Origin: Bacteroidales bacterium
GTDB lineage: Bacteria > Bacteroidota > Bacteroidia > Bacteroidales > Bacteroidaceae
Direction of reading: 5' to 3'
Length of the DNA stretch: 64,000 bases
Assembly (NCBI GenBank): GCA_015060965.1
Contig: SUXN01000001.1
Location: 1-64,000, forward strand
Of the stretch, positions 42,210-61,345 are shown one piece after another. Numbering within the stretch: the stretch's first letter is position 1; each line of letters begins with the position of its first letter. Both the position numbers and the translations under genes were made by a program. Under the pieces are notes generated by a model. That model was not told where the DNA came from and did not search any database. It saw nothing but the letters and a program-made list of their open reading frames with translations.

Positions 42210-44452
42210 TTAGGGTCTTTTTTAAGTTTCATTCTGATGTTTGCGTTGTCGAGCAGCTGCTTGTGTGTCAGGCGGTAGCCGCTCTTCTTGCCGTTGAGGC
42301 TTATGCTCTCGATGTAGTGGCAATCCTCGTCGGGGCGCTCACACTCGATAGTTATGTCTCCCTGTGGGGTGGTGATGCTCACCTTGTCGAACACCGGTGT
42401 CGTGAGAGTGTAATATGGCTCACCCGGACAGTCGGGGTAGAAGCCCATCATGGAGAATACCGCCCATGCCGACATTGTACCTGTGTCGTCGTTGCCCGGT
42501 ATGCCGTTGGGGGCATTCTTGTAATTGTTGTCGAGAATCTTCTTCACCTCCTTCTGTGTGCGCCACTCCTCGCCCTTGAAACGGCTGAAGAGATATGCGT
42601 ATACAATGTCGGGCTCGTTGGCGGGGTCATAGTAGTCGTTGTCGAACACGCCCTGCAGGCTGTTGATGAATCCTTTCTTGCCGCCCATGAGTTTTGTGAG
42701 GCCCTTGATGTCATGGGGCACAGCGAATGTGTAGCACCATGCCGAAGCCTCATGGAAACCGGGTACGTTCTCGAAGTTCTTGCCTGTGGCTGGGTCAAAG
42801 TCACCCAAGAACTCGCCCTCCTTTGTGAGCGGACGCAGTGTCCCATGCTCCTTGCAGAAATAGCGGCGGTAGCTCTGTGAACGCTTGGTGAACTCCTTTA
42901 CGCGTGCCTTGTCGCCCAGTGAGTCGGCCAGCTGCGCAATGGCATAGTCTGCCGAACAGTATTCAAGCGCGTGCGATACGGAGTTGTCGCCCGAAAGGTC
43001 ATTCGAGAAGTACCACAATGGAATGAAACCGTCCTTGATATACGGGTCGATGTCGCGGCGGATAGGGTTGTTCGCACCCTCTGTGGTCGCAGACTTGAGC
43101 ATCGCCTCGTAAGCCTTGTCAATGTCGAAGTCGCGCAGGCCCTTGATCCAGCTGTCGGCAATTACGATAGCAGCAGGGTCACCCTCCATGGTGAATGTCT
43201 CGCGGCCGAAAAGTTCCCAGCGTGGCAACCAGCCCCAATCCTCGTACATTCCTACCATCGAGCGCAGCATGTCTGTCTGGCGCTCGGGGTATACAAGCGT
43301 GAGCAACTGGTGAAGGTTGCGGTAGGTGTCCCAAAGAGAGAATATTGTGTAGCGTGTATGGTCACTCTTGCCGATGCCTGCATTCTCCATCTTGGGGTAC
43401 TCACCGTTGACGTCGCTCAATGTGCTCGGGTGTATGAGCGCATGATAAAGGGCGGTGTAGAAGATTGTCTGCTGGTCTTTAGTGCCGCCCTCTACGCGTA
43501 TGCGTCCGAGGTCGCTGTTCCAGCGCTCCACAGCCTGTGCATGAATCTTGTCGAAGTCTTTGCCTCTCTGCTCTGCTTCAAGGTTCTCCCAGGCATTCTC
43601 CACCGACACGAACGACACACCTATCTGCACGGTTATCTGTTCGCCCTCGGCAAGGTCGTCGTAGCAGAAACGGTAACCGATGTTGTCACCGGCAATCTCC
43701 TTGTAGTAGTTCTCGTAGAGCTTGTATGTGCCGTCGTCGGGTGTCCATGCAGCCTCTACTCCGCTCAATTCGGGCTGGAACTTCCAAGGTCCTTCGCTTG
43801 TGGGGGCCTTTGACACGCGCATTGCAAAGTAGATGGGGAACACGGCCTGTGTGGTGTAGCAGAATGTACCCAACAGCTTGAATCCCTCAATCTCGGTATT
43901 GCTTATACGGCGTACCATGGCGCCGCTCTCGTTGGTGAGGCCCTGGCCCAAGTTCAGGATGATGTTACCCTTGCCGGCAGGGAAAGTGTAGCGCTCGCAC
44001 GCGCTGCGCGTGGTAGCTGTCACCTCGGTCTTGATGCCGTATTTTGCGAGTCTGTTGCTGTAGTAACCCGGTGAGGCAACTTCGTCGGTGTACTCCGTGC
44101 CGTATGTAAAATAGTTCACGTCAAGCTCTCCGGCAGTAGGCATCACCAACAGTGATGAGGCCTCGGGGCAGCCCACGCCGCTCAGGGCAACGTGTGCATA
44201 GCCTGTGAAGAACTTGTTGTCGTATTCGTACGGTGCCGACCACCAGCGGCTGTCCTTGTCGAACACGTTGAGGTCCGAACCCATCACGTTGAAGGGGACT
44301 ACGGACATCATGCCGTTGGGTGTCACTGCGCCGGGATTGGTGGTGCCGAAGTTTGTGGTGCCGATAAAAGGGTTCACCAGCTCCGCAGGCTCCTGTGCAT
44401 TGATTGTCACCGCCGACAGCAATGCGGCAAATAACAGTGTTATCTTTCTCAT
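42206..44452 (-). CDS. GH92 exo-alpha-mannosidase, second paralogue
   Basis: A 748-residue exported enzyme with signal peptide 1-20 (AVTINAQ) and no lipobox, so probably periplasmic. GH92 motifs are LVNPFIGTTNFG, AHVALSGVGCPEAS, SLWDTYRNLHQL, FGRETFTMEGDP, ANEPDIVYAYLF and GNDDTGTMSAWAVF. Against its neighbour the LSGTG and HGNEPSHH sites are changed (LSGVG; ANEPDIV), pointing to a different linkage specificity, probably not alpha-1,2. The start at 44452 (ATG) is preferred over a TTG six bases earlier. Confidence 0.9.
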   Translation of the reverse strand: MRKITLLFAALLSAVTINAQEPAELVNPFIGTTNFGTTNPGAVTPNGMMSVVPFNVMGSDLNVFDKDSRWWSAPYEYDNKFFTGYAHVALSGVGCPEASSLLVMPTAGELDVNYFTYGTEYTDEVASPGYYSNRLAKYGIKTEVTATTRSACERYTFPAGKGNIILNLGQGLTNESGAMVRRISNTEIEGFKLLGTFCYTTQAVFPIYFAMRVSKAPTSEGPWKFQPELSGVEAAWTPDDGTYKLYENYYKEIAGDNIGYRFCYDDLAEGEQITVQIGVSFVSVENAWENLEAEQRGKDFDKIHAQAVERWNSDLGRIRVEGGTKDQQTIFYTALYHALIHPSTLSDVNGEYPKMENAGIGKSDHTRYTIFSLWDTYRNLHQLLTLVYPERQTDMLRSMVGMYEDWGWLPRWELFGRETFTMEGDPAAIVIADSWIKGLRDFDIDKAYEAMLKSATTEGANNPIRRDIDPYIKDGFIPLWYFSNDLSGDNSVSHALEYCSADYAIAQLADSLGDKARVKEFTKRSQSYRRYFCKEHGTLRPLTKEGEFLGDFDPATGKNFENVPGFHEASAWCYTFAVPHDIKGLTKLMGGKKGFINSLQGVFDNDYYDPANEPDIVYAYLFSRFKGEEWRTQKEVKKILDNNYKNAPNGIPGNDDTGTMSAWAVFSMMGFYPDCPGEPYYTLTTPVFDKVSITTPQGDITIECERPDEDCHYIESISLNGKKSGYRLTHKQLLDNANIRMKLKKDPK

Positions 44453-44458
44453 AATCAA

Positions 44459-45559
44459 TTATCTTTTGTCGAGTTCACTCAAGGCAAATGCATAAGCGCC
44501 CACTGATACGGCCTTGCTTGCGCCGAGCTTTGAAATTGCGATGCCCACGCGCTTCTGGCTGTCGTAGTCGACATATCTCTCTTCGCCGTAAACCTTTACC
44601 TTCTTCACTTCGCCCTGTGCAAAGAGCTTGAACTCCTCGTCGTCCTCAAGGTTGTATACCTTCATCTGTACAAGGTTCACCTCGTCGCCGCCCAGTGTGT
44701 GGAGTTTAGAGCGCATCTCCTCAAGGAGTGCTGGCATAATCCAACGGCTTGCAGCCGATACGCCGCCACCGATCACAACAAGACCGTCGATGATTGTCAC
44801 CGCTGTGGAGATTGCAGCACCGGCGATTCTTCCGAGTGATGCGAATGCCTCCTTTGCAGCCTCGCGGTCGCCTTCACGTGTGCCGTCGGCAATCTCGCAG
44901 ATATCCTTCGGAGTGAGGCCGTGGTCGGGATTGCTGCTCTTCTCGCCGTACACTCTCTTCACGGCGCGGATAGCCACACCTTCCTCAACGATAATCTCGG
45001 GCATCTCCTTGTGGCGCAGGCAGAATGTCTCCACGCATGAGTTGTCACCGCGGTTAAGACGGCTGTCGATTACGACTCCTATTCCGAATCCGGTACCCAA
45101 AGTGTAGCCTATGAGGTTCTTGTACTGCTTTGTAGAGCCCAGTTCCTTGAGGCGGTTGTTGATTTCGGGCAGGGCACCGCAGAGAGCCTCTCCGTATGCG
45201 AAGAGGTCACCGTCGTTGTTGATGAACACGGGCACGCCGAACTGCTTCTCGAGGAAAGCACCCAGTGCCACACCCTCACGGAATGAGGGGAAGTTGGGGA
45301 GGTAGCCTCCGATGATGCCGTTGGGGTAGTCGGCAGGGCCGGGGAAGGCAAAACTGATTGCAACTGGCTTCTCCTCCAGCTTGTCGAATACCTGACGGAA
45401 TCCGTTGACCATATTCTGCAAACAGAGGTCAAGGTCGTGTGACTGTGCAGGAACCGAAACAGGCTCAATAATAAACTCTCCTGCCTTCATCGCGCCGAAC
45501 ACAAAGTTTGTGCCGCCGGCGTCGAGTGTGGCAACAATGCGGTTATCGTTTTTATACAT
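44459..45559 (-). CDS. ROK-family sugar kinase
   Basis: A 366-residue cytosolic kinase. The ATP phosphate loop is TLDAGGTNFVFG (11-22), FPGPADY marks the sugar site, NNDGDLFAYGE (about 131-141) holds the catalytic Asp, and GYTLGTGFGIGVV and VVIGGGVSAA follow. The usual ROK zinc site CxCGxxGCxE is missing; its place is taken by SCVETFCLRHKEMPEI. In a mannoside operon a mannokinase or related activity is likely but unproven. Gaps are 12 bases from GH5 and six to GH92. Confidence 0.85.
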   Translation of the reverse strand: MYKNDNRIVATLDAGGTNFVFGAMKAGEFIIEPVSVPAQSHDLDLCLQNMVNGFRQVFDKLEEKPVAISFAFPGPADYPNGIIGGYLPNFPSFREGVALGAFLEKQFGVPVFINNDGDLFAYGEALCGALPEINNRLKELGSTKQYKNLIGYTLGTGFGIGVVIDSRLNRGDNSCVETFCLRHKEMPEIIVEEGVAIRAVKRVYGEKSSNPDHGLTPKDICEIADGTREGDREAAKEAFASLGRIAGAAISTAVTIIDGLVVIGGGVSAASRWIMPALLEEMRSKLHTLGGDEVNLVQMKVYNLEDDEEFKLFAQGEVKKVKVYGEERYVDYDSQKRVGIAISKLGASKAVSVGAYAFALSELDKR

Positions 45560-45571
45560 AGTTATAAGTTT

Positions 45572-46903
45572 TTATTTGTTTATCTCCTTTGAATATTTCT
45601 TGATAGTCTCAATTGTTGTTGTGTCGTTGTCAAAGACGGAGTACCAGCCTTGTGGCTCGTGTGGGGGGTCACAGAGATAGTCGTCGCCGGCCTGCCATAC
45701 AAGGTCGCGTGGACGTCCGCTGCCGCCCCAACCCCAGAAGTTGCAACCTGCGATAGGCCCGCCTGTCTCCACGCTCTTCTTCACCTGCTCAAAGATGAAC
45801 GCGTAGAAGATGTCACGGCTGTCTGTGGGTATGCCTGTACCGCTCACGTTGCCCTGGCGTGAATAACCGAACTCCTCAATCACCAATGGCTTGTTGATCT
45901 TTCCGGCCATAGCAATGTGTTCGTCGATATACTCGCCGCTTCTCTTGCAGGCGTTCTCGATGCCGCTGTCAGGGTTAGAGCGTGGTGCCCAACCCCAGTT
46001 TACAGGCCATATATGTATGGTAAGGTAGTCGATGTTCTTGTCGGCGTGTATGCGCTCGCACAGTTCAGGATCAACCTCGCAACCTATGTAACCCTCGCTA
46101 CCTGTTGATACAAGGTGGTTGCTGTCAATACTTTTTATCAGCGCAGCAGCCTCAATGTTCCACTTTTCAAAAGCCTCCTTGTTCTCCTTTGAAAAAGCAC
46201 GTGGCTCGTTGCAGAGCTGCCATGCCATGATGGCAGGCTCGTCCTTGTAAAGGCGTCCGGTGATGCTGTTCTTGCGAGATACGATAAGCCTTACGTAATT
46301 ATAGTACATCTCAAGAGCCTTAGGCTCGCGTGCGAAGTTTGCGCAGTACTCGACGTAACGGTCGTATCCGCCATCCTCAAGAGTGTTCGGTGAATCGCCG
46401 TATCCGCACTCCTTCAGGTAGAAGCCCATGCCACCGCTCCAGTCCCAGGCATTGTTGAGATAAATTACAGCGGTCATGTCTCTCTTCTCAAGTTCGGCCA
46501 ATACAAAGTCAAGTCCTTGGAGTATGGTGTCGTTGAGCACTCCGGGAGCTGTCTGCAGATAAGGTTTCGCAGGGTTCGCGAGGTCACTGCCGGCATCGGG
46601 TCCCGAGAGGATTCTCAGATTGTTCACACCGATTGCCTTGAGGTTGTCGAGTTCCTTGCAGAAACGCTCCCTGTTGCCGCCCTCACCGGTAGATGCAAGC
46701 ACACTCGCATACCACAGGTTGGTGCCTATGTAATGGTAGGGCTTACCGTCCTTGATGAATTTTGTTCCGTCTGTTGTTACGAAACTTACTTCCTCCTTCT
46801 CGCTCTCCTTTGCTTGGCTCTTGTTGCCGGCTCCTGCGCCGCAAGCCAAAAGAATTGTTGTTGCCATTGTAAAGAACAGGCCTTTTATTACACTCATTCT
46901 CAT
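45572..46903 (-). CDS. GH5-family endo-beta-mannanase-like lipoprotein
   Basis: A 443-residue lipoprotein (lipobox TILLAC, C21). The catalytic domain is a TIM barrel of clan GH-A: acid/base E233 in WQLCNEPRAF and nucleophile E344 in LVIEEFGYSR. The N-terminal KFIKDGKPYHYIGTNLWYAS and the following NNLRILSGPDAG fit mannanases of GH5 subfamily 7 type. It would cut beta-mannan or glucomannan at the cell surface. It is first in the operon with ROK and two GH92 genes; alternative start at 46897 is possible. Confidence 0.85.
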   Translation of the reverse strand: MRMSVIKGLFFTMATTILLACGAGAGNKSQAKESEKEEVSFVTTDGTKFIKDGKPYHYIGTNLWYASVLASTGEGGNRERFCKELDNLKAIGVNNLRILSGPDAGSDLANPAKPYLQTAPGVLNDTILQGLDFVLAELEKRDMTAVIYLNNAWDWSGGMGFYLKECGYGDSPNTLEDGGYDRYVEYCANFAREPKALEMYYNYVRLIVSRKNSITGRLYKDEPAIMAWQLCNEPRAFSKENKEAFEKWNIEAAALIKSIDSNHLVSTGSEGYIGCEVDPELCERIHADKNIDYLTIHIWPVNWGWAPRSNPDSGIENACKRSGEYIDEHIAMAGKINKPLVIEEFGYSRQGNVSGTGIPTDSRDIFYAFIFEQVKKSVETGGPIAGCNFWGWGGSGRPRDLVWQAGDDYLCDPPHEPQGWYSVFDNDTTTIETIKKYSKEINK

Positions 46904-47824: not shown

Positions 47825-48907
47825 ATGAACGGTTTCGGTCAACTGCTTCGCCTTACAACCTTCGGTGAGTCACACGGAGTGGCCATCGGAGGTGTTGTCG
47901 ATGGATTCCCTGCCGGGGTGGTCATCGATGAGGATTTTATACGTGGCGAGATGCAGAGACGTCGTCCGGGGCAGAGCAGGATAACTACACAACGCAATGA
48001 GCAGGACGAGGTCCGTTTCCTCTCCGGCATCTTTGAGGGACGCTCTACGGGTACTCCGATAGCCTTTGTCATAGAGAACAGCAATAGCCACAGCAATGAT
48101 TACGATAATCTGCGCGAGGCCTTCAGGCCTTCACACGCCGATTATGTTTACGACCGCAAATACGGTGTTCGTGACCATCGCGGTGGCGGGCGTTCTTCTG
48201 CACGTGAGACAGCGGTGCGTGTATGTGCCGGTGCTCTCGCAAAGTTGGCGCTCAAACAGCTGGGCATTTCGGTGCAGGCCTACACCTCGCAGGTGGGCGA
48301 TATTGTGCTCGGTGGTGAATATTCGCAGTATGACCTCTCGCTTGCCGAATCGAACATAGTGCGTTGTCCCGATGAAGAGAAGGCCCGTGAGATGGAGCGG
48401 CTCATCCTTGATGTCAAGCGTGACGGCGACACTGTCGGCGGCGTGGTCAGTTGTGTGGTGAAAGGCGCTCCCGTAGGGCTTGGAGAACCTCTTTATGGCA
48501 AACTCTCTTCTTCATTGGCCCATGCGATGCTGTCGATAAATGCAGCCAAGGGTTTCGATTACGGCAATGGCTTTGCCGCAGCCTGCGGACGCGGTTCGCA
48601 ACAGAACGATATCTTCTACAACAACGGAGGCACAATAGCGACGCGCACCAACAATAGCGGTGGAATACAGGGCGGCATCTCCAACGGTAACGACATCTTT
48701 TTCCGTGTGGCATTCAAGCCTGTGGCGACGTTGCTCAAGAAGCAGGCTACAGTCACCCGTAACGGTGAGGATACTGTGCTGCTTGCACGTGGACGCCACG
48801 ACCCTTGTGTGGTGCCTCGGGCGGTACCTGTCGTAGAGGCTATGGCTGCGTTGGTTGTCCTTGACCACTTTATGCTCGCAAGGGCAAAGGACCGCCTGTT
48901 CGTGTAA
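47825..48907 (+). CDS. aroC: Chorismate synthase
   Basis: Turns EPSP into chorismate with reduced FMN. The 360-residue protein shows the family signatures [18 protein letters not shown] (near 16-33), [19 protein letters not shown] and FKPVATL. Upstream extension would read the SlyD tail out of frame and is rejected. It follows the slyD-like gene by seven bases. Confidence 0.96.
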
Positions 48908-48940: not shown

Positions 48941-51088
48941 ATGAAAACCACAAAAAAAGTATCCTCTCATGTTGCGGATGCAGCAACGGATACTTCAAAT
49001 AAAGGCAAGGTTTCTTCATTTGCCCGCTTTTTTGCCGACGATGCCAAATGGCAACCTGCTGTCGCGGTGCTCTTTTTTGTCGCGATATGGGTCCTGTTGG
49101 GCTTCTATGAGTCGGCTCTGTTGAGGAGGACCGAGTCCTTGTCTCTTTTTGTCTTTGACACCACATTCTATAACTCGATACTCTCGGTGCCTGCAGGAAC
49201 CTTGTCGCTCGTAGGCAGTTTCCTTGTGCAGTTTTTTCATAATCCCGCTCTTGGTGCGGCGATATATGTGCTGTTGCTCTATGCCGTGTTCCGCCTGACG
49301 CGCAAGGTGTTTGACGTGCCGGCAGTGTGTACCCTTCTGGCGCTCCTGCCTGTAGTGGCTCTTCTTGCATCGAATACGCAGCTCGGATACTGGCTCTTCT
49401 ATCTGAAGATGCCTGGATACTATTATATGGCACTGCTGGCGACGCTTCTGTCGTTGCTGGCGATGTGGGCCTATAAGCATATGGGCAATGTCTCGCGTCT
49501 TCTGCTTGTCGCTGTATGGGTGGTTGCCGGTTATCCCCTGATGGGTGTCTATGCTCTTGCATCGTCTCTTCTTCTGGCGCTTTATGGCGTGGCGCTTTCT
49601 GCGCGACGTAAGGAAAAAAAACTTTTTCCGGCAGTGACACTGGTGGTGACTGTGCTGCTTGTGCTCTTTATCCCACGGATTTATTACAACCTTTGTTATA
49701 ATTCAATAGCGATTGAGGATGTATATATGGCCGGAGTTCCGGTAACACAATGGAATTTCGCGATTGTGGAGAAAGTGGAGTATCTCACAAGTTCGTTCTG
49801 GCATAATATCTATCTTTATTGGGTGCCGTTCGTGTTGTTGTTGCTCTCTTTCCTTGGTTTTGTGCTCTCTTATGCATTCCGTTGCAATGGACATTGTTCG
49901 GTAAAAGTGACGCGTACGGTTACTGTAGCTGTACTTTTATTGGCAGTATGCTTCGGTGCGCGTTTCTGGTATTGTGACAATAATTTCCGTATAGAGAATA
50001 AACAGAATATCGCTATCTGGGACGAGGACTGGAGGGCTGTTGCCGATTATGCCAAGGATTGTGACGAGCCTACCCGTCAGATTATCCTCAACAAGAACTT
50101 GGCCTTGCTGAAACTGGGCCGTGCAGGAAACGAGATGTTTGCATATCCTGACGGTGGTGTGTTGCCTGTTTCTCCTTTGGCGGTGCATATGACACATACC
50201 GACGGCTCGTTGATTTATTATAATCTCGGTCGTTTCAACTATTGTTACCGTTGGTGTATGGAGAATGCGGTGGAGTATGGCTGGAGGCACGAATATCTCA
50301 AGAGTGCAGTCCGCTCTATGTTGTTGTCCGGTGAATACAAACTCGCGGAAAGGTACATCAATATACTCAAGAAGACTATGTTCTACCGGGGGTGGGCAAG
50401 GGAAATGGAGGCATATGCGGACGAGCCGGCTCTTGTTGGGAAGAACCCTGCCCTTGCGCAGCCGCTGAAGTATACCTGCTACAATGACATCTTGAGCGTG
50501 GATGATGTGGTTGAGAAGTATGTGATGGATGCCATTGATGCCAATATGACTGGCGAGCAATCAAGTAAAGCCTATCTGTCCTCTCTGTCGGGTGCGCTGG
50601 CTGCCAAAGACAGTGTTGCCTTTGGCAACTCAATGGAACTCAAGCAGGAGATTACTCCCGAATTCATAGAGGCCTCTCTTGTGATGGCGCTTATAAAGAA
50701 AGATTCCAAACGCTTTGTGGCAGCACTTAACCTGTTTATACAGGATTATATAAAGGGTGTTGATATGAAAGATCCGAAGTCCGTGAAGCAGCTTCCAAGA
50801 CATTATCAGGAGGCGTTGTTACTCTTCTTGACTCTTGACAAAGGCAAGACCGTGCAGGTGGGTGAGGAGTTTCTCAATGCCTTCGTCAGCAGAGGCCCAG
50901 GTGGGGTAGAGGCAAATTTCATGAAGTTCCAGAACAGTGTCGCAAAGACACGCGACGAACTCCGTAAAACATATCCGTATATGACTGAAAGTAGGCTCAA
51001 TGCGGTTATTGCAGCGCTGTTGAAGAAGGAGTTCGGTAATACCTACTATTACTACTATTTCTTTGTGAAGAAGATAATGACATATTAA
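48941..51088 (+). CDS. Polytopic membrane protein, DUF6057-like
   Basis: A 715-residue protein. The N-terminal half has about nine hydrophobic helices (first near 35-55, last near 320-340); the C-terminal half (about 350-715) is soluble, helical and TPR-like in look (GEYKLAERYINILKKTMFYRGW, ALLLFLTLDKGKTVQVGEEF). It resembles the DUF6057 proteins of Bacteroidales, recalled rather than searched. Function is unknown. The haem-motif lipoprotein starts 12 bases later, so they are likely co-expressed partners. Confidence 0.7.
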   Translation: MKTTKKVSSHVADAATDTSNKGKVSSFARFFADDAKWQPAVAVLFFVAIWVLLGFYESALLRRTESLSLFVFDTTFYNSILSVPAGTLSLVGSFLVQFFHNPALGAAIYVLLLYAVFRLTRKVFDVPAVCTLLALLPVVALLASNTQLGYWLFYLKMPGYYYMALLATLLSLLAMWAYKHMGNVSRLLLVAVWVVAGYPLMGVYALASSLLLALYGVALSARRKEKKLFPAVTLVVTVLLVLFIPRIYYNLCYNSIAIEDVYMAGVPVTQWNFAIVEKVEYLTSSFWHNIYLYWVPFVLLLLSFLGFVLSYAFRCNGHCSVKVTRTVTVAVLLLAVCFGARFWYCDNNFRIENKQNIAIWDEDWRAVADYAKDCDEPTRQIILNKNLALLKLGRAGNEMFAYPDGGVLPVSPLAVHMTHTDGSLIYYNLGRFNYCYRWCMENAVEYGWRHEYLKSAVRSMLLSGEYKLAERYINILKKTMFYRGWAREMEAYADEPALVGKNPALAQPLKYTCYNDILSVDDVVEKYVMDAIDANMTGEQSSKAYLSSLSGALAAKDSVAFGNSMELKQEITPEFIEASLVMALIKKDSKRFVAALNLFIQDYIKGVDMKDPKSVKQLPRHYQEALLLFLTLDKGKTVQVGEEFLNAFVSRGPGGVEANFMKFQNSVAKTRDELRKTYPYMTESRLNAVIAALLKKEFGNTYYYYYFFVKKIMTY

Positions 51089-51100
51089 GAAAAGAGCCGT

Positions 51101-52603
51101 ATGAAGAAATTTATCCACTATATTTTTGTCCTGTTTCTCATGCTCGTGGCTTCGTGTTCGCCCGAGCTGCCGGCGCAGTATGCCGATGTCGATGCTGTAC
51201 CTGAGATTTTCCCTGATTATACAGGCGTGACTGTTCCCTGCAATATCGCGCCCCTCACTTTCCGCATCGACAATGAGGCCGACGGGTATGTGACACGCCT
51301 CTCGGCAGGCGATAAGGAGGTTGTTGTTGGCGGTGACGAGGTAGTGCCTTCATTTGAAGAGTGGCAAGGGCTTGTAGAGGTCGCCAAGGGTGCTTCGATA
51401 AAAGTAGAGGTGTATGCGCAAAACGAAGGTTCATGGAAAAGATATGTGCCTTTTGAAATTTTCGTCTCACCCGACGAGATTGATCCGTATATATCCTACC
51501 GCCTGATTCCGCCCTCTTATGTGGCATACGAGAAGTTGACAATAAACCAGCGCAACCTCAGCAATTACGACGAGGAGGTCATTTATAGCAATATGCTTGT
51601 CAGTGCCGAGCCTCAGGGCCAGTGCATCAACTGCCACGCGTACAAGAACTACAAGACCGACAACATGCAGTTCCACGTGCGTCAGTTCAAGGGCGGTACA
51701 ATCTTCATCCACGATGGTGAGGCAAAGAAAGTGAATCTCAAGACCGATTCTACAATTTCGGCAGGAGTATACCCCGCGTTCAACCCCAAGTATGATGTTG
51801 TTGCCTATTCTGTGAATACCACAGGCCAGGTGTTCCATACGGCACATCCGAATAAGGTGGAGGTTCAGGATACCCTGAGTGACATCATTGTCTATAATCC
51901 CGTAAAGGAGATTGTGACCCATGTGGCTTGTGATCCCAACGACCTTGAGGTCTTCCCCACCTGGTCGCCCGACGGAAAGAGCCTTTATTATGGTATTGCA
52001 AGGGTAAAGTGTGAGGATCCTGCAAAGAGTCGTGTGCAGCAACTTATCGAGGAGTACAAGAATATAAAATATGATATTGTACGTCGCTCGTGGAACCCCG
52101 AGACGGGTGTATTCGGAGAGCCCGAGACGGTATTTGCGGCAGCCTCAATGGGCAAGAGTGCTACCTTTCCCAGGATATCTCCATGTGGAAAGTATCTGCT
52201 CGTCGCGCTTGGAGAGTATGGCTGTTTCCACATTTGGCACAAGGATGCCGACCTCTATGTAGTAAATCTTGAGAACGGTGATTACTGGCCCCTTGAAAAG
52301 GCCAATTCCCCATATCCCGAGAGCTATCATGCGTGGAGCAGCAACGGCAGATGGGTGCTCTTTGCGAGTCGCCGCCTCGACGGTAATTACAGCCGTCTGT
52401 TCATTGCCCACATCAATGAGGACGGAACGAGTGACAAGGCCTTCGCTTTGCCTCAGGAGCATGCCGGTCATTATGACTTTTTCGACCGCTCTTATAATGT
52501 CCCGGAATTTATGGTCGAGCCTGTAAAATACACTCCACAGGAGTTTGCCGAGATAGTTAAGGGCGAATCTGTGACTGTTAAATATTCGCCAAACATAAAG
52601 TAA
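51101..52603 (+). CDS. Propeller (PD40/TolB-like) lipoprotein with CxxCH haem motif
   Basis: A 500-residue lipoprotein (lipobox LVASC, C19). An N-terminal beta domain (about 25-125) is followed by a CINCH motif at C175-H179, the signature for covalent haem c. The rest is a beta-propeller of PD40/TolB type: YPAFNPKYDVVAYS, FPTWSPDGKSLYYG, FPRISPCGKYLLVAL, YHAWSSNGRWVLFAS. In the family this is often labelled cytochrome c biogenesis or TolB-like. It is last in its transcript, before a terminator. A single haem site in a surface or periplasmic propeller suggests redox sensing or electron transfer; unproven. Confidence 0.78.
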   Translation: MKKFIHYIFVLFLMLVASCSPELPAQYADVDAVPEIFPDYTGVTVPCNIAPLTFRIDNEADGYVTRLSAGDKEVVVGGDEVVPSFEEWQGLVEVAKGASIKVEVYAQNEGSWKRYVPFEIFVSPDEIDPYISYRLIPPSYVAYEKLTINQRNLSNYDEEVIYSNMLVSAEPQGQCINCHAYKNYKTDNMQFHVRQFKGGTIFIHDGEAKKVNLKTDSTISAGVYPAFNPKYDVVAYSVNTTGQVFHTAHPNKVEVQDTLSDIIVYNPVKEIVTHVACDPNDLEVFPTWSPDGKSLYYGIARVKCEDPAKSRVQQLIEEYKNIKYDIVRRSWNPETGVFGEPETVFAAASMGKSATFPRISPCGKYLLVALGEYGCFHIWHKDADLYVVNLENGDYWPLEKANSPYPESYHAWSSNGRWVLFASRRLDGNYSRLFIAHINEDGTSDKAFALPQEHAGHYDFFDRSYNVPEFMVEPVKYTPQEFAEIVKGESVTVKYSPNIK

Positions 52604-52644: not shown

Positions 52645-52686
52645 GCCTCTTTTTTGATTGGATTCAATCGGAAAAGAGGCTTTTTT
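52645..52686 (+). terminator. Terminator after the haem-motif lipoprotein gene
   Basis: GCCTCTTTT (52645-52653) pairs with AAAAGAGGC (52672-52680), with an inner GATTG/CAATC stem and a run of six T after it. It separates the slyD-aroC-lipoprotein genes from the FAS1/SusCD array. Confidence 0.82.
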
Positions 52687-52851: not shown

Positions 52852-55800
52852 ATGTTTAAGCACCGTTTAAGTAAATTTGGCAAGGCATCGTTGTTCGCGA
52901 TGTTCATGCTTCTTGTTGGCGGTTCGTTCCAGTCATGTCAGGATGACTATGATCTTCCGAACAAAGAACCGAAATGGTTGGGCGCAAGCATTTACGATTT
53001 CTTGAAGACCGGTTCTACCGGCCATTCTTACTCGAACTTCGTCGAGCTTATCGACAGTTTGGGCGAGAAGGAAACGCTTGCTCACACAGGTAGTAAAACT
53101 CTCTTTGTGGCCGATGATGCCGCATTCGAGAGATTCTTTGAGGACAACCCTTGGGGTGTAAAGAGTGTCAGCGAGATGACAAAGACACAGATGAAGTATC
53201 TGTTCTACAGCTCAATGCTCGACAACGCGCTTCTGCTTGATATGCTTTCAAGCAGTGGTCCTACAGAAAACGACGAGGGTCAGGTGCTCCGCCGTACGAC
53301 ATCTTTCTCAGTTATTGACAGTATTCCTTTGGTGACAGCATCGGAGATGCCGGTATTCAACAAATACTGGGATGCTCTCCGTGGTGTTGAGAGAGACGCG
53401 GCTCTGCGCCTTGCAAAGGACGGTACCGCTCCTATGATGGTTCACTTCCTTAGCGACTACCTCAAGCAGCAGTCAATCAAGGCTTCTGATATCGAGTTCC
53501 TCTTCAAAAAGAACGGTGTACAGACAAAGACCTTTGCCGACAACGAGGCTCTTATCTATGACAAGAAGCTTGTTGCCAGCGGTATCTCTACTGACGGTTT
53601 CTCTGACGATACAATGACAATCACATGTAAGAACGGTTATATCTATCGCCTTGACGATGTACTCCTTCCACCTTCAAACATGGCCGAGGAGTTGCGCAAC
53701 CGTGAGGATACAAAGGTGTTCAGCCATCTGCTCGACCGTTTCTGTATTCCTGTATATGATGCTGCACTTACAGCAGAATACCAGGCTTACCACAAGACAA
53801 ACGACAGTATCTTCCGTATGCGTTATTTCTGCAGTGAGTTCACAAGCTATAACCTACTTACAGCTTCTGGCTCTAACCCTGCAGCAGAAGAACTCCTGAC
53901 ATACGATCCGGGATGGAATGCTTATGCGACAGCTCTCGGTGCCGAGAAGGATATGGCAGCAATGCTTGTTCCAAAGGACGATGCATTCTATACCTATTTT
54001 ACAACAGGTACAGGTGCCTTCCTTGTTGAGCAGTTTGCTCCAAGCGTTGAGATTTCTGATATGGAGACTCTTATACAGGCTCTTGATTCAATTCCTGAGA
54101 TCAACGTGGCTTCATTGCTGAATAACCTTATGCAGCGTTCTTTCAAGGACTGCGTTCCAAGCAAGTTCGATAAGGTTAAGGATGACGCCAACGATGAGAT
54201 GGGTCTTACAGAGAAAGACGTTGACGAGTGCGTTATCGCAAACAACGGCGTTATATATATATTAAATAATGTATTCGGCCCAGCCGACTACCGTGCAGTA
54301 CACGCTCCTTCATTGGTATTCGACAATATGCTTATGGTACGTCACTGCGTGACACAGTTGCGTTACGACTACTATCTCAAGGCTATGGATGCCGAGTACA
54401 GCTTCATCATCCCCGATGACAACTACTTCGTATACCACGATCCTATCACTGTGAACACCGCTACACCTACTGTGTATGCGTTCCACTATAATAAGGAGCG
54501 TCCGAAGGGTAACGGTAAGACCGATGAACTTTGGGCAAGCAAGTACAAGTTCAACCCTGCTACATACGAGATTACCGATACATTGACAGATATGGCTCCT
54601 GTATCTGTTGCAAGCAAGGGTGGTGGTTTTTCCAACGCATTCATGAAGAACCGTATGACCGACCTCATGGAGTACCTTATCATCGTACACGATGAGGGTG
54701 ACGGCATTATCCGTGCCGACGGTACATTGAATCCTAAGAAGTATTATCAGACTAAGGGTTACGGTACAATGAAGGTTGATACCAGCGATCCTAACGCTGT
54801 GAAGTTCTACGGCGGTGAACAGATTGAGAACGGTACAGCCATCACAATCGGTACACAGCACGAGCAGGAGAACGGTTATGCATTCTGTACCGTTCCTTAC
54901 GATGTTGAGAGCCTTTCACCTGCACGCAAGGCTTCTGCAATCCCGACACCTCCTACAAAGTCTGTATATACAAACCTTTTGAACAACTCGGAAGAGGAGA
55001 CAGATATCTATCATGAGTTCTTCAGTCTCTGTATGCCAGATTCACTTGAGGCTACATTGAAGATTATGTTCCCCAAGGCTTCGGACCGTGTGATAAAGAA
55101 CGACTCTTTGCGTCTCTATTCAATCTTCTACTCTTCAACAGACGGAACATTGGTTAACGTGGTACCATTCTTCAATACATACCACTATACAGTATACGTG
55201 CCTTCTAACGAGGCTATCAAGGGTGTAATTGCCGATGGTCTTCCAACTTGGGAAATCATTGCAAACGAGTCAAACGTGAACCCTGCCAAGGCCGCTTCAC
55301 AGATGCGTCTGCTCAACAACTTCCTGCGTTATCACTTCCAGGACAACTCGGTATATGTTGACAACGTACCATTCTCAATTCCTTCTCCCGAGGGCGGCAA
55401 GTATACTGAGGCTAACTTCGCTACAGCAGTCATCAATACAACAACCGGTCGTTTCTACGAGACCACCGTCAAGAATGCCGATGACAACAGCACTGTAGTT
55501 GTTGTTGACCAGTTGGGTAACACTGCAAAGATTCTCAAGAGCGGTGAGGAGGGCAAGACATGGAACGTGATGTCACGTGACATCGAGTACACCGTTTCCG
55601 GTAGTGCCAAGACTCCTTCTACAATCGCTACATCTTCATATTCTGTAATCCAGCCAATCGACCGCGCTCTCCTCAACGAAGGTCTGTTCGGTTATGACGG
55701 CCGTTTCCGCCGCTTCGCTGCCGACGGTGAGCTCGTAGACGTGATGGCAGTTGCCGGTATCGAGGGTTCTGTAACTCTTGAGGACGGTACAAAGCCATTC

Positions 55801-56136
55801 CTCGTAGCCAACGTAGGCGAGTACGAGATGGAGGCTCTTGACGGTACAACAAAGATGATGCGCGTTGCTTATCTGATGTCTCCAATCGACGAGTCTGACG
55901 AGGCTTGGAGCTCAACAACACGCGAGCAGCTTGTCCTCAACGGTGAGGAGAAAGTCCTCGTAAACGAAGAGGGTATGCTCGTAAAGTTTGTCAAGGGTGA
56001 CGACGGCAACACTGTAGAGTACGTTACAGAGGCAGCTGAGGATGGCAACAACTATATGATCAAGGTTAACAACAATGGCGATGTGGTAGAGAAAATCCTT
56101 GTTGAGACAGAGGAGTCTACCGAGCCAGCGAATTAA
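52852..56136 (+). CDS. Multidomain fasciclin (FAS1) lipoprotein
   Basis: A 1094-residue lipoprotein (C29 in GSFQSCQDDYD). FAS1-like segments occur near 45-200 (SIYDFLKTGSTGHSYSNFVEL ... KTLFVADDAAFERFF), near 280-470 (a degenerate repeat, AMLVPKDDAFYTYF) and near 770-960 (YTVYVPSNEAIKGVIADGL, LNNFLRYHFQDNSVY). The acidic C-terminus ends near EESTEPAN. FAS1 domains mediate adhesion or partner binding; here it is likely surface-exposed and coupled to the SusC/SusD pair, which begins 28 bases later. No enzyme motif was seen. Confidence 0.82.
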   Translation: MFKHRLSKFGKASLFAMFMLLVGGSFQSCQDDYDLPNKEPKWLGASIYDFLKTGSTGHSYSNFVELIDSLGEKETLAHTGSKTLFVADDAAFERFFEDNPWGVKSVSEMTKTQMKYLFYSSMLDNALLLDMLSSSGPTENDEGQVLRRTTSFSVIDSIPLVTASEMPVFNKYWDALRGVERDAALRLAKDGTAPMMVHFLSDYLKQQSIKASDIEFLFKKNGVQTKTFADNEALIYDKKLVASGISTDGFSDDTMTITCKNGYIYRLDDVLLPPSNMAEELRNREDTKVFSHLLDRFCIPVYDAALTAEYQAYHKTNDSIFRMRYFCSEFTSYNLLTASGSNPAAEELLTYDPGWNAYATALGAEKDMAAMLVPKDDAFYTYFTTGTGAFLVEQFAPSVEISDMETLIQALDSIPEINVASLLNNLMQRSFKDCVPSKFDKVKDDANDEMGLTEKDVDECVIANNGVIYILNNVFGPADYRAVHAPSLVFDNMLMVRHCVTQLRYDYYLKAMDAEYSFIIPDDNYFVYHDPITVNTATPTVYAFHYNKERPKGNGKTDELWASKYKFNPATYEITDTLTDMAPVSVASKGGGFSNAFMKNRMTDLMEYLIIVHDEGDGIIRADGTLNPKKYYQTKGYGTMKVDTSDPNAVKFYGGEQIENGTAITIGTQHEQENGYAFCTVPYDVESLSPARKASAIPTPPTKSVYTNLLNNSEEETDIYHEFFSLCMPDSLEATLKIMFPKASDRVIKNDSLRLYSIFYSSTDGTLVNVVPFFNTYHYTVYVPSNEAIKGVIADGLPTWEIIANESNVNPAKAASQMRLLNNFLRYHFQDNSVYVDNVPFSIPSPEGGKYTEANFATAVINTTTGRFYETTVKNADDNSTVVVVDQLGNTAKILKSGEEGKTWNVMSRDIEYTVSGSAKTPSTIATSSYSVIQPIDRALLNEGLFGYDGRFRRFAADGELVDVMAVAGIEGSVTLEDGTKPFLVANVGEYEMEALDGTTKMMRVAYLMSPIDESDEAWSSTTREQLVLNGEEKVLVNEEGMLVKFVKGDDGNTVEYVTEAAEDGNNYMIKVNNNGDVVEKILVETEESTEPAN

Positions 56137-56164
56137 TAGTGATGTCGAATAAACATAATTAGCC

Positions 56165-59100
56165 ATGATAAAGATAAAACATTTATTACTACTCGTGCTT
56201 TTCTGCTCTTTGAGCAGTTCTGTATTTGCACAAAAAGGTGCGAGAATTTCGGGTACGATAACCAGTGACGCCGAAGGTCCACTAATTATGGTGAACATCA
56301 CCGAGCGTAGCAGTGACAATCGTATCATCAACCATTGCGCGACCGACTTTGAGGGTAACTTCTCAATGGTTGTAAAGAACACAAGCAATGAGCTTGAGAT
56401 TACTTATATCGGTTACAAGACCCAGCGTCTTAAAATCGGTAGCCGTACAGTATTCAATGTAAAGATGGTCGAGGACAACGTGCTCGATGACGTAGTGATT
56501 ACTGCAAAGCAGGTACAGCGTTCAGGCGGTCTTGACATTCTTGAGCGTGAGATGACCCATGCGACACAGAAGATCAGCATGGAAGACATGGAAGGTCTCT
56601 CTTTCTCATCTGTCGACCAGGCTCTTCAGGGTCAGATTGCGGGTCTTGACGTCGTGTTCAACTCTGGTGACGTAGGTTCTGGTACACAGATGCGTCTCCG
56701 TGGTAGCGCAACCCTCGAGGGTAACGCACAGCCTCTGATTGTTGTCGATGACAACATTCTTCAGGTCGACGTCAGTAGCTTCGATTTCGAGTCTGCTACA
56801 GACGAAAGTTTCGCCGAACTCCTTATGGTCAACACCGAGGATATCGCCGAGATCGAGGTTTTGAAGGATGCAGCTTCTTGCGCCGTTTACGGTTCACAGG
56901 GTGCGAACGGTGTCATCAAGATCAAGACAAAACGTGGTAAGCGTGGTCCAACACGTGTGAACTTCTCTTACAAGTTCAAGGACAAGTGGACACCAAGCGG
57001 TATCAACCTTCTCAATGGTGACGACTACACAATGCTTATCAAGCAGGCACTCTTCAACCAGAACCAGTCGGCGGTGGTTGTTCCGGAGTTGAACTATGAC
57101 AAGACATTCCCCGAGTATGAGAACTATAACAACAATACCGATTGGGTTGATGCCGTTTCAAAGCACGGTTACAGCAACGACTATAACCTCAACATATCAG
57201 GTGGTGGTGAGAAGGCTACTTTCCGTGTATCAGGCGGTTACAGCAACGAGACAGGTCAGGTAATCGGCCAGTACTTGCAGCGTTTCACAAGCCGTCTTGC
57301 TCTTGACTACTATGTTTCATCACGTATCAAGGTTATCGCAGACTTCTCGTTCTCTTATACAAAGCAGAGAAAGAATACCAATAGCCCTCTGTACGATTCA
57401 CAGTTGATGATGCCTAACATGAGTATCTACAAGCAGGATATCTATGGCAACAACACCGATGAGTACTATGCAATGCTTGACACTGAGAACAAGAACGTTC
57501 TTGAGAGTGCTCTCAATGGTCAGAAGAACCCTATCGCGGTTGCAAGGCTTGCCGAGTATCACACTGAGAACTACAGCATCACTCCGCAGATTACGTTGGA
57601 GTATAACCTCTTGGGTCTTGAGGACGATGAGACACAGTTGAAGTATCGTGGTATGGTTAACCTTAGTGCCGGTACATCATCTGGTACTGTATATATGCCT
57701 TCTGCACTCTCAATGGACAACTGGACCTCTTCTGAGAAGAACAAGTCCCAGGCTGATGACAGCAAGAGTCTTTACTTCACAACTCGTCACCAGTTCATTT
57801 TCACTCCTTATCTGGGTCACAAGGACCACTTCCTTACAATGAACGCACAGTTCCAGTTGGAGACAGGTAGCGGTAACTCACAGAACTCTACAGCTGTTGG
57901 TCTTCCTACAGGTAACATCAGCAGTTCAACCATCGGTGCTAAGCTCGGTGGCTCAGGAACCACCAAGTGGGAGAGTCGCAAGATTAGCTTCGTTTGGGAT
58001 GCTCACTACTCATACAAGTCAAAGTACGCTTTGCGTCTTGCTGTACGCGGTGAGGGTCTTACATCAATGGGTGATGACAGAAAGTGGATTGCCTTCCCGT
58101 CTGTTTCTGCACGTTGGAACATCATCGACGAGGATTGGATGGAGTGGGCACGCCCTGTAGTAAGCATGTTGTCTCTTCGTCCGGGTTGGGGTATGGACGG
58201 TGAGGCTCCACAGGAGAACAAGACATTCAACAGCTATTCTACATTCAAACACGGTGATACCGACCTCAGTTACCTTGGCATGGCAGCCTTCCAGATGGAC
58301 GGTATCCGTCTGACCGACCTGAGCTGCTCACGCAAGAGCGAGTGGAACATCGGCTCTGACTTCGGTTTCTTCAACGGCAAGCTCACCGGTGCGTTCAACT
58401 ACTATAGCGGTACAACAAAAGACCAGATTGTCCGCCAGTACAAGATTCCTTCTCCAACAGGATACTCTTCTTTGGCATACAAGAACTCTGGTTCAATCCG
58501 CAACTCAGGTTGGGAACTCAACTTCAACCTCAACAACATAAAGGTTGCTAAGGATTTCTCTATCTCGGCTTACTTCAACGTAGGTAAGAACTACAACGAG
58601 ATTCTTGAACTCGAGGATGCTTATCTCGAGGAGCGCAACGGTAAGTACGATGCCCCTGAGAACGGAAAATATCTGCCACGTATACAGATCGGTAACCCTG
58701 GCGGTTCTATCTACGGCTTCCGTTATAAGGGTGTTTACCGCTACAGCTACAAGAACTGGGAGAAGGCTATCTCAGAGGATGCTGCCGGCCGTAACGGTAC
58801 CTGTCCTATCGTACGCGATGCTGACGGTAATGTAGTCTTCAATGCCGACGGTACACCAAAGAAGATGGCTCTCTTCTTCGACAACGAGGAGCTGACAACT
58901 TACAACCGTTATGAGTTCCGCGGTGGTGACGCTATCTATGAGGATGTCAACCATGACGGTACAATCAACCAGCTCGACATCGTTTATCTCGGTAACTCTA
59001 ATCCTAAGGCGCAGGGTGGTTTCGGTTTCACATTCCGTTACAAGAAGTGGACTCTTAGAACCAACTTCACATACCGTTACGACGTAGACGTAGTGAACAA

Positions 59101-59497
59101 CGCACGTATGAACTTTGAGAACATGACTACATTCAACAACCAGAGTAAGGCTGTTAACTGGCGCTGGCGCAAAGAGGGTGATATCACGGAGGTTCCACGT
59201 GCCGTATATGGTAGCGGTAACACATACAACTACCTCGGTAGCGACCGTTATGTAGAGGATGCTTCTTATGTACGTCTCTCTTATGTTCAGCTCTCATACT
59301 CTTTCGAGCCCGAGTGGCTTAAGAAGGTTGGCTTGTCAAGCCTGAATGTATATGCGTCTGCAGACAACGTATGCTTCTGGACAAAGTATACAGGTCTTGA
59401 TCCAGAGGTTGCTTGCGGTGGAGGTGGTATTGCTTATGACAATTCAAAGACTCCACGTTCACGCTCTTACACACTTTCACTTTCAGTCGGTTTCTAA
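56165..59497 (+). CDS. SusC/RagA-family TonB-dependent transporter
   Basis: A 1110-residue outer-membrane transporter. Signal peptide 1-23 (SSVFAQ), carboxypeptidase-regulatory-like beta domain (about 28-105), plug (about 130-260: VDQALQGQIAGLDVVF, MRLRGSATLEGNAQPLIVVDD, DAASCAVYGSQGANGVI), then a 22-strand barrel ending SLSVGF. No STN signalling domain is present, so no anti-sigma control is expected. It pairs with the SusD gene 12 bases downstream. Confidence 0.93.
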   Translation: MIKIKHLLLLVLFCSLSSSVFAQKGARISGTITSDAEGPLIMVNITERSSDNRIINHCATDFEGNFSMVVKNTSNELEITYIGYKTQRLKIGSRTVFNVKMVEDNVLDDVVITAKQVQRSGGLDILEREMTHATQKISMEDMEGLSFSSVDQALQGQIAGLDVVFNSGDVGSGTQMRLRGSATLEGNAQPLIVVDDNILQVDVSSFDFESATDESFAELLMVNTEDIAEIEVLKDAASCAVYGSQGANGVIKIKTKRGKRGPTRVNFSYKFKDKWTPSGINLLNGDDYTMLIKQALFNQNQSAVVVPELNYDKTFPEYENYNNNTDWVDAVSKHGYSNDYNLNISGGGEKATFRVSGGYSNETGQVIGQYLQRFTSRLALDYYVSSRIKVIADFSFSYTKQRKNTNSPLYDSQLMMPNMSIYKQDIYGNNTDEYYAMLDTENKNVLESALNGQKNPIAVARLAEYHTENYSITPQITLEYNLLGLEDDETQLKYRGMVNLSAGTSSGTVYMPSALSMDNWTSSEKNKSQADDSKSLYFTTRHQFIFTPYLGHKDHFLTMNAQFQLETGSGNSQNSTAVGLPTGNISSSTIGAKLGGSGTTKWESRKISFVWDAHYSYKSKYALRLAVRGEGLTSMGDDRKWIAFPSVSARWNIIDEDWMEWARPVVSMLSLRPGWGMDGEAPQENKTFNSYSTFKHGDTDLSYLGMAAFQMDGIRLTDLSCSRKSEWNIGSDFGFFNGKLTGAFNYYSGTTKDQIVRQYKIPSPTGYSSLAYKNSGSIRNSGWELNFNLNNIKVAKDFSISAYFNVGKNYNEILELEDAYLEERNGKYDAPENGKYLPRIQIGNPGGSIYGFRYKGVYRYSYKNWEKAISEDAAGRNGTCPIVRDADGNVVFNADGTPKKMALFFDNEELTTYNRYEFRGGDAIYEDVNHDGTINQLDIVYLGNSNPKAQGGFGFTFRYKKWTLRTNFTYRYDVDVVNNARMNFENMTTFNNQSKAVNWRWRKEGDITEVPRAVYGSGNTYNYLGSDRYVEDASYVRLSYVQLSYSFEPEWLKKVGLSSLNVYASADNVCFWTKYTGLDPEVACGGGGIAYDNSKTPRSRSYTLSLSVGF

Positions 59498-59509
59498 TAG
59501 TTGATGATT

Positions 59510-61246
59510 ATGAAAAGAATATTGAATTTATATAAAAAACTCGTCGTTGCTGTAGCCGTTATGTGCGGTACACTGATGAGTTCGTGTACAGATTATCTGA
59601 CAATTATCCCGCCGGAAATCAACACTGAGGAGAATTTCTGGCAGACAAAGGATGACGTTAACGGTATTCTTGCAACAGCTTACCTGAAACTTTTGGGTAC
59701 CGATGCCATTCAGAAGGCAATCGTATGGGGTGAGTTGCGTGCCGATAACCTCACATTCCCCGCAAACTATGACAGGAACATCAAGTATATCGTCGAGGCA
59801 AATATTCTTGATGAGAACCCTTACTGTAATTGGTCAACCTATTACTCGGCAATTCAGACAGCCAACCTTCTGATTGAGCGTGCTCCTCAGGTTGTTGAGC
59901 GTGACCCTGACTTTACCGAGGGTGACCTTCAGATAGTTATGGGCGAGATGTACGCTTTGCGCGCGTTGGCTCACTTCTATCTTGTACGTACTTTCCGTGA
60001 TATCCCAATGGCACGTGTTGCCGTTATCGGTGACAATGATATGCCGGAGTATCCTCAGGTACATCCATTGCAGGCACTTGATGAGATTATGGAGGACCTT
60101 GAGAAGGCCGAGAAACTTGTGATGAAGTCCGGCAACTTCTCTTCACCGGCCGAGAATTATGGCCGTATCACTGAGGATGCCGTTTTGGCAATCAAGGCTG
60201 ATGTGAACCTTTGGCGTGCTGCCTTTACAACATACTATGAGGGCCAGAGCGAGCTTGCGAATGCAGCCAACATCCAGAAGTACTATGATGATTGTGTTCA
60301 GGACTGCCAGAGAATCCTTGATAACAAGGCCCGTCTGCTCGAGGATAAGGGTGGTGACAAGGGTGACAAGACGAAGTATCCTTACAACCTCCTCCAGAAC
60401 CAGGGTGAACTTGAGGATCGCGTTGATTCTAAGATGAGTTCTGTATATAACGAAATCTTCGGTTCAAAGAACTCTCGCGAGTCTATCTTCGAGCTCCAGT
60501 GTCAGGGTGACAACATCACCAACGGTTATGTACGTGGTGTAATCAGCATGTATGGTTATGAGGGTAACATCGGTGCTGTAATTGTTCCTTCTACATTCGC
60601 GGCTAAGAATTACGAGACAGATGACTTGCGTGCTTATTCATTTACAAACGTCAGGTCGCTCACAGGTAACTCAAATACAAGCAGCGGCAGTGACGAGAAG
60701 AACGACATCATAGTCGCAAAGTACACTGCAATGGGCTCACCTGCTAAAGACTACCGTAAGTCTGACGACTTCGATGCAAACTGGATTCTATACCGCCAGA
60801 CAGACGTCATGCTGATGATGGCTGAGGCTATGGTAGCGCGTCCTTCGGCAAATGTCGAGGATTTCAACAAGGCATTCGACATTGTGAAGGCTATCAACAC
60901 ACGTTCACGTATGGACACTACTGCTATAAAGAAACCTCTTAACCTTGCAAACTACCAGTCACGTGAGACAGCCCTTGAGCTCATTCTCAAGGAGCGTCTT
61001 CTCGAACTCTCATTCGAGGGTAAGCGCTGGTATGACCTTGTACGCAAGGCATTGCGTGAGAAAACTACAAACAACATCAAGTTCGTCGCTGATAAGCTCG
61101 AGAGCCAGTCAAGCGTTGTGAAGAGTAAGATGTCTACTATCGACGCCCTCTTCTTCCCAATCTACTATGATGAGTTGCGTTTCAACGACAAGCTGGTTCA
61201 GAACCCGGCATACGAACATGAGGATGAATCAACCGAGATGAACTGA
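59510..61246 (+). CDS. SusD/RagB-family surface lipoprotein
   Basis: A 578-residue lipoprotein that caps the SusC pore. Lipobox MSSC (C26), then TDYLTIIPPEINTEENFW, the helical TPR core (EMYALRALAHFYLVRTF) and a C-terminal RagB domain with ELSFEGKRWYDLVRKA. The start at 59510 is chosen; ATG at 59504 and TTG at 59501 are alternatives. The ligand is unknown. Confidence 0.92.
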   Translation: MKRILNLYKKLVVAVAVMCGTLMSSCTDYLTIIPPEINTEENFWQTKDDVNGILATAYLKLLGTDAIQKAIVWGELRADNLTFPANYDRNIKYIVEANILDENPYCNWSTYYSAIQTANLLIERAPQVVERDPDFTEGDLQIVMGEMYALRALAHFYLVRTFRDIPMARVAVIGDNDMPEYPQVHPLQALDEIMEDLEKAEKLVMKSGNFSSPAENYGRITEDAVLAIKADVNLWRAAFTTYYEGQSELANAANIQKYYDDCVQDCQRILDNKARLLEDKGGDKGDKTKYPYNLLQNQGELEDRVDSKMSSVYNEIFGSKNSRESIFELQCQGDNITNGYVRGVISMYGYEGNIGAVIVPSTFAAKNYETDDLRAYSFTNVRSLTGNSNTSSGSDEKNDIIVAKYTAMGSPAKDYRKSDDFDANWILYRQTDVMLMMAEAMVARPSANVEDFNKAFDIVKAINTRSRMDTTAIKKPLNLANYQSRETALELILKERLLELSFEGKRWYDLVRKALREKTTNNIKFVADKLESQSSVVKSKMSTIDALFFPIYYDELRFNDKLVQNPAYEHEDESTEMN

Positions 61247-61270
61247 TTGTAGTAAAGAATTTTATCAAAA

Positions 61271-61317
61271 GGTCACTGCAATGTGTGACGACAAGTGGCG
61301 ATGATGCTGCAGTGACC
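61271..61317 (+). promoter_or_regulatory. Stem-loop between susD-like and FAS1 genes
   Basis: A perfect ten-base stem, GGTCACTGCA (61271-61280) and TGCAGTGACC (61308-61317), with a 27-base loop and no T-run. It may be an mRNA processing, stabilising or partial-termination site that sets expression of downstream genes. Confidence 0.5.
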
Positions 61318-61345
61318 CATTAATGAAAGAAAAAAACTTATTTAT

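Follow-up and report, generated by a model that had tools for sequence, protein, structure and literature searches.

A DUF6057 membrane protein and a propeller lipoprotein with a haem c motif form a conserved gene pair in Bacteroidales

Two adjacent genes of a Bacteroidales bacterium (assembly GCA_015060965.1, 2.59 Mb in 69 contigs) are the subject of this report. They lie in the first 64,000 nucleotides of contig SUXN01000001.1 (positions 1-64,000, forward strand), and this whole stretch is referred to below as the window. The first gene encodes a membrane protein of the family DUF6057, and the second, which begins after a spacer of 12 bases and is present as a single copy in this genome, encodes a lipoprotein that combines a beta-propeller with the haem c attachment motif CINCH. 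An earlier note on this DNA had read the locus from its letters as a membrane protein with a TPR-like soluble half, followed by a lipoprotein in which CINCH (C175, C178, H179) is joined to a TolB-like propeller. Both open reading frames are as described there, and the upstream one is a full-length match to the Pfam family PF19529 (DUF6057; 1e-78, 266.1 bits against a cut-off of 29.8). The features of the pair, with structural boundaries taken from AlphaFold2 (AF2) models and lengths in amino acids (aa), are as follows.

48941..51088, + strand: DUF6057 membrane protein (PF19529), 715 aa, probably N-in/C-out as judged from AF2 and its K/R-rich loops, with a helical, TPR-like C-terminal half predicted to be periplasmic
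49040..49963, + strand: membrane half of DUF6057, residues 34-341 (ten AF2 helices, mean hydropathy 1.1-2.0)
49973..51085, + strand: helical soluble half of DUF6057, residues 345-715, of which 346-498 are TPR-like (AF2 and structure comparison)
51101..52603, + strand: propeller lipoprotein with haem c motif, 500 aa (lipobox, PD40, CINCH, AF2 model)
51101..51157, + strand: signal peptide and lipobox, with the predicted lipidation site C19 (kept in 77 of 77 homologues)
51182..51475, + strand: N-terminal beta-rich domain, residues 28-125 (AF2 secondary structure)
51623..51637, + strand: CINCH haem c attachment motif, C175/C178/H179, residues 175-179, on the innermost strand of blade 1
51674..51676, + strand: H192, candidate distal ligand (118 of 123 aligned)
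51836..51838, + strand: H246, candidate distal ligand (110 of 122 aligned), in a low-confidence b-c loop
52235..52240, + strand: W379-H380, candidate distal ligand region (H380 is absent from both members that lack CxxCH)

The attachment motif of the lipoprotein is highly conserved. A first set of 77 homologues was assembled from the window itself, 47 loci of genome contigs and 29 order-wide loci, and all 77 carry CxxCH, with N177 invariant as well. When 60 further regions were added, C-x-N-C-H was found in 120 of the 122 members that cover the motif. Loss of CxxCH from most orthologues, which the earlier note had regarded as fatal to its reading, is thus not what the family displays. Ten distant paralogues (564-953 aa) have CGNCH or CANCH at the same position, and although identity between the two classes is only 17-23%, aligning them together leaves 18 invariant columns, four of which are the C, N, C and H of the motif. 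In control regions CxxCH occurs in one of 217 called genes. As judged from these sequences, a chance origin of the motif is excluded. The two propeller lipoproteins that lack CxxCH (L123, G178:C7; L124, G108:C21) come from genomes that hold other, motif-bearing copies. H380 is gone from both, and L123 additionally lacks H192 and L124 additionally lacks H246. These two would be natural haem-less paralogues, usable as controls.

The fold of the lipoprotein is that of a TolB-like propeller, as the earlier note had proposed. A family profile search matched PD40 repeats at 1.5e-10. The AF2 model (mean pLDDT 88.3, 46 sequences) consists of the beta-rich domain at residues 28-125 and a six-bladed propeller, and comparison of this model with known structures (VIA-align) placed TolB at the top, with Z 25.9 and a root-mean-square deviation of 3.2 over 273 residues. 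Sequence searches of the PDB were less informative, since the lipoprotein alone returned nothing useful and a broad profile returned only generic PD40/WD40 propellers and TolB. By the strand order of the model, CINCH falls on strand a of blade 1 (residues 174-181), which is the innermost strand. In the model, therefore, the motif is built into the propeller, and there is no separate cytochrome domain. Model confidence within the propeller is among its lowest at 246-248 and 371-380, which contain H246 and W379-H380; these stretches would fit loops that become ordered only when haem is present. The acid-rich signal for surface-exposed Bacteroidetes lipoproteins (SDDDD-like; consensus from PMC5080379) is missing after the lipidated cysteine: in 75 of 77 homologues, positions +2 to +6 hold at most one acidic residue.

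The partner protein is likewise modelled with good confidence (pLDDT 88.7). About ten hydrophobic helices take it to residue 341, and in the helical domain that follows, the part from 346 to 498 resembles TPR proteins (Z 8-9). Lysine and arginine are enriched at the N-terminus and in the loop 223-228, after helix 203-223. These positive charges place the C-terminal half in the periplasm, and hence probably on the same side of the membrane as the lipoprotein. The co-occurrence of the two genes was followed in 393 Bacteroidales genomes, 47 with the full lipoprotein and 346 without it. DUF6057 scores over its cut-off in 52 genomes, including all 47 lipoprotein genomes; in the five that have DUF6057 alone, the gene either lies near a contig end (two genomes, G011 and G154) or is a divergent or weak match (three). 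Among 123 lipoprotein genes of normal length, DUF6057 is immediately upstream on the same strand in 110, with a median gap of 13 bases, and immediately downstream in four. The pairing is nearly obligate. No function is recorded for DUF6057, and a search of the open-access literature found no paper that names it.

DUF6057 is also seen in other arrangements. The genome studied here encodes one more DUF6057-like protein, which is divergent and shorter (382 aa; contig C8, 4615-5763) and has no propeller lipoprotein with it; its gene adjoins that of a probable glycogen branching enzyme, and two further loci share this layout. At L134 and L135, DUF6057 without the lipoprotein stands beside CotH kinase-like proteins (confirmed by Pfam at L135), with SusC/SusD genes also present at L134. 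Ten loci carry a tandem array of DUF6057, lipoprotein and DUF6057, followed by an S9 prolyl oligopeptidase-like gene, which was confirmed by Pfam in one of them (L036).

Attachment of haem c depends on a maturation system, the absence of which the earlier note had named as a second way to overturn its proposal. The genome encodes one ResB-CcsA fusion of about 760 aa (contig C39), directly downstream of a di-haem oxidoreductase-like lipoprotein (DHOR, 2e-36). Across the sample, CcsA was found in 46 of the 47 genomes with the lipoprotein and in 272 of the 346 without it (p 6e-4, which is not a clean probability since the genomes are related). It is strongly supported that the lipoprotein would carry one covalently bound haem c. 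The earlier note had also suggested that a distal Met or His ligand be sought, and this search gave a partial answer. Three histidines are well conserved among aligned members (H192, 96%; H246, 90%; H380, 90%) and M189 is less so. Any of H192, H246 or H380 could be the distal ligand, and they are presented here as candidates only.

A link that the earlier note did not anticipate connects this pair to a chorismatase. The linked protein matches PF21168 and a RidA-like domain, and it matches the Hyg5 structures 5ag3/5a3k at E about 1e-25. All 35 chorismatases found carry the signature CR-x-x-L-x-x-E (28 by pattern, seven by eye). This signature holds the active-site glutamate and the characteristic cysteine of the Hyg5 type (CH-II), which makes 3-hydroxybenzoate (PMC7170507). 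The gene is present in 35 of the 393 genomes, comprising 24 of the 47 lipoprotein genomes versus 11 of the 346 others (p 2e-17). It is close to the pair in nine loci (to DUF6057 alone in one of these, L135), and to the CGNCH class of paralogues in two more; these loci come from several families and vary in gene order. In the genome studied here, the one chorismatase gene sits on a different contig (C29) from the pair. Other neighbours of the chorismatase include NHL-type di-haem proteins, CGNCH-class paralogues, large proteins with two CxxCH motifs, and ResB-CcsA, once only 48 bases away. An exported CxxCH protein is encoded within 7 kb in 19 of the 35 chorismatase loci (p 5e-4), and CcsA in three more (22 of 35 in total), against a background of none among 13 control regions of the same genomes with either an exported CxxCH protein or CcsA. 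A search of the open-access literature returned no paper that links chorismatase with cytochromes c in Bacteroidota.

Seven of the chorismatase loci share a recurring cluster, the genes of which were named by eye and some of which may be missing from individual loci. Its order is an IclR-type regulator, an NHL-propeller di-haem protein (CNGCH...CxxCH), the Hyg5-type chorismatase and a small protein, and the remainder comprises a large protein with two CxxCH motifs, ResB-CcsA, and dihydroxyacetone kinase and aldolase genes. Aryl polyene, flexirubin and dialkylresorcinol clusters were considered as the reason for the presence of the chorismatase and were set aside, as inspection by eye of nine regions of 16-20 kb revealed none of their genes.

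These observations might be brought together in a single model, in which the two genes encode one envelope module: a propeller cytochrome docked on DUF6057 that performs periplasmic redox chemistry and is tied in many lineages to an aromatic acid. We put the probability of this model at about even. The lipoprotein would be exported, receive its lipid at C19 and stay on the periplasmic side, where machinery of the CcsBA type would attach one haem c to C175 and C178, with H179 as an axial ligand. With the motif on the innermost strand of blade 1, the haem would lie at the propeller mouth. One of the conserved histidines (H192, H246 or H380) might occupy its second axial position, or this position might be open and lined by them. 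The periplasmic helical half of DUF6057 would dock the propeller at the inner membrane. The redox role itself is hypothetical; the module might act as a small-molecule oxidoreductase or as an electron relay. In many lineages it would work with the aromatic acid that the Hyg5-type chorismatase makes from chorismate. This acid could plausibly be a reactant, a mediator or a product, and a use of 3-hydroxybenzoate is equally hypothetical.

Several findings weigh against this model. DUF6057 has no redox motif and no conserved histidine in its membrane half, so that a haem b in this protein is unlikely and a path for electrons through it is not evident. The earlier note had suggested an envelope redox sensor or electron-transfer unit, and this proposal has fared unevenly: the conserved pair, the exported and lipid-anchored propeller, a haem c motif beyond chance and the maturase all agree with it, and the missing haem-ligating histidines and electron path do not. 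None of the candidate distal ligands is kept in every member, and in the distant class positions 192 and 380 hold Asp or Gln. The AF2 model is free of haem, and its confidence at the motif is moderate (block mean of 76 for residues 171-180). A comparison of conservation between the top and bottom of the propeller, made to locate the haem face, gave no bias toward the proposed face and is not used as evidence. One lipoprotein genome (G322) yielded no match to CcsA or ResB in separate searches; its congener G042 has CcsA, and a gap in the assembly of G322 is possible. Finally, about half of the lipoprotein genomes lack the chorismatase.

The alternative that survives best is that the lipoprotein is a haem c protein with a non-redox role, in which haem or propeller is structural or sensory and controls the partner, as in a sensor or a chaperone-like envelope module. 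There is precedent in TfcP, a noncanonical c-type cytochrome outside electron transport that stabilises PilY1 (PMC8833165), and both the lack of a redox motif in DUF6057 and the frequent proximity of the pairs to SusC/SusD genes would suit such a role. However, the repeated linkage with the chorismatase and with further c-type cytochromes speaks for chemistry over pure scaffolding, and this alternative seems fairly unlikely.

A second alternative concerns the chorismatase link alone, which might be an effect of lineage if gene-rich genomes simply retain both systems. The sampled genomes are related, and the absence of the chorismatase from half of the lipoprotein genomes is also in keeping with this explanation. 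Yet the link persists when families are counted in place of genomes (17 of 22 lipoprotein families, p 3e-11), and the close adjacency in eleven loci, with its varied gene order and a background of 0 of 13, also speaks against this explanation. We regard a lineage effect as unlikely.

It could also be that DUF6057 is a GT-C-like transferase, with the propeller lipoprotein as its periplasmic cofactor or substrate carrier and the haem incidental to glycan or aryl transfer. The membrane half aligns with ArnT and OST/Stt3 over 248-263 residues at Z 7.1-7.7, and the layout of transmembrane helices plus TPRs is of the kind expected, but values of Z below about 13 can arise by chance for helical proteins, and Foldseek gave no match to DUF6057 at E under 0.001. 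At the position past the first helix (first outer loop) where GT-C enzymes have an acid, DUF6057 holds Glu in 39 and Gln in 41 of 97 sequences. A transferase role is quite improbable. Least probable of all is a metal site or disulfide at CxxCH in place of haem: haem is invisible in sequence, the strand placement in the AF2 model is unusual for haem c and G322 lacks a detectable CcsA, but the exact five-residue pattern is common to distant classes and lost whole in two paralogues, CcsA co-occurs with the lipoprotein, and the chorismatase is linked to other exported CxxCH proteins as well.

Comparison with known systems helps to place the preferred model, a propeller cytochrome docked on DUF6057. 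TolB of the Tol-Pal system is likewise a periplasmic six-bladed PD40 propeller, but the NCBIfam TolB and Dpp5 models score far under their cut-offs for the lipoprotein (19.9 against 343 for TIGR02800), which in addition has a lipid anchor and CxxCH within blade 1 and lacks adjoining tol-pal genes. Hydrazine synthase alpha (5c2v) ranked thirteenth in the structure comparison, with its six-bladed propeller matched at Z 22.9 over 286 residues (chain positions 55-431), and it too is a c-haem protein. Its catalytic haem motif, the alpha-I motif at His587, lies beyond the propeller (PMC12607021; domain order also PMC12758564), whereas the sole CxxCH of the lipoprotein (at 175) lies within it and the protein ends with the propeller, so that no haem-binding domains follow. 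The two haem sites are therefore not equivalent.

Closer relatives are the CGNCH-class PD40/TPR proteins of Bacteroidota, which have a homologous propeller, CxNCH in the same place and a chorismatase beside them in some loci. They differ in having Asp at 192, a residue other than His at 246, mostly Gln at 380 and Met at 377, which indicates that the haem surroundings vary by class around a constant attachment motif. Some have C-terminal TPRs, and no DUF6057 partner was found for them. Three loci hold divergent gene pairs in which both products are of the CGNCH/CANCH class, one long (920-953 aa) and one short (564-607 aa), with TPRs confirmed in the long protein of one pair (L105). The NHL-propeller di-haem proteins of the ccsBA clusters are also exported, carry c-type motifs (CNGCH...CxxCH) and stand beside the same chorismatase; they differ in having two motifs, and their NHL-type propeller was named by eye from sequence only.

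Two further features flank the pair in the window.

47825..48907, + strand: aroC (chorismate synthase, named from sequence), 33 bases upstream of DUF6057
52645..52680, + strand: strong intrinsic terminator-like hairpin (16 pairs, T-rich tail) that appears to close the unit, starting 41 bases past the lipoprotein stop codon

The aroC gene was considered as a member of the unit and dropped; its synteny is restricted to close relatives, and it is probably merely a neighbour. Beyond the hairpin, positions 52852-63028 encode consecutively a large fasciclin-domain protein, SusC, SusD and a second probable fasciclin protein. The large fasciclin-domain protein and SusC follow the pair in most close relatives, but these genes were excluded from the unit because they are located past the terminator. 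On the minus strand, 40011-46903 holds mannan-type genes named by eye, namely two GH92-like mannosidases, a ROK-type kinase and an endo-mannanase-like lipoprotein.

The pairing described here, of a haem-motif lipoprotein with a family that has no recorded function, provides a first functional handle on DUF6057. It also reveals a haem c motif that, instead of residing in an added cytochrome domain, is part of the inner strand of a TolB-like propeller, so that a c-type cytochrome would be found in an unusual place with an uncharacterised partner. That chorismatase and c-type cytochromes are linked in the genomes of gut Bacteroidales was unexpected, and this makes the role of a stand-alone chorismatase in these anaerobes testable. 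A broader proposal, which is tentative and somewhat doubtful, is that haem c beta-propeller proteins of Bacteroidota have an aromatic acid made from chorismate, either 3-hydroxybenzoate or one of its derivatives, as their partner molecule, in a redox system of the envelope that has so far gone undescribed. The same chorismatase would then serve three alternative kinds of propeller cytochrome, namely the DUF6057 pair, the CGNCH class and the NHL di-haem proteins. Should the chorismatase link prove functional, this envelope redox system would be of a new kind.

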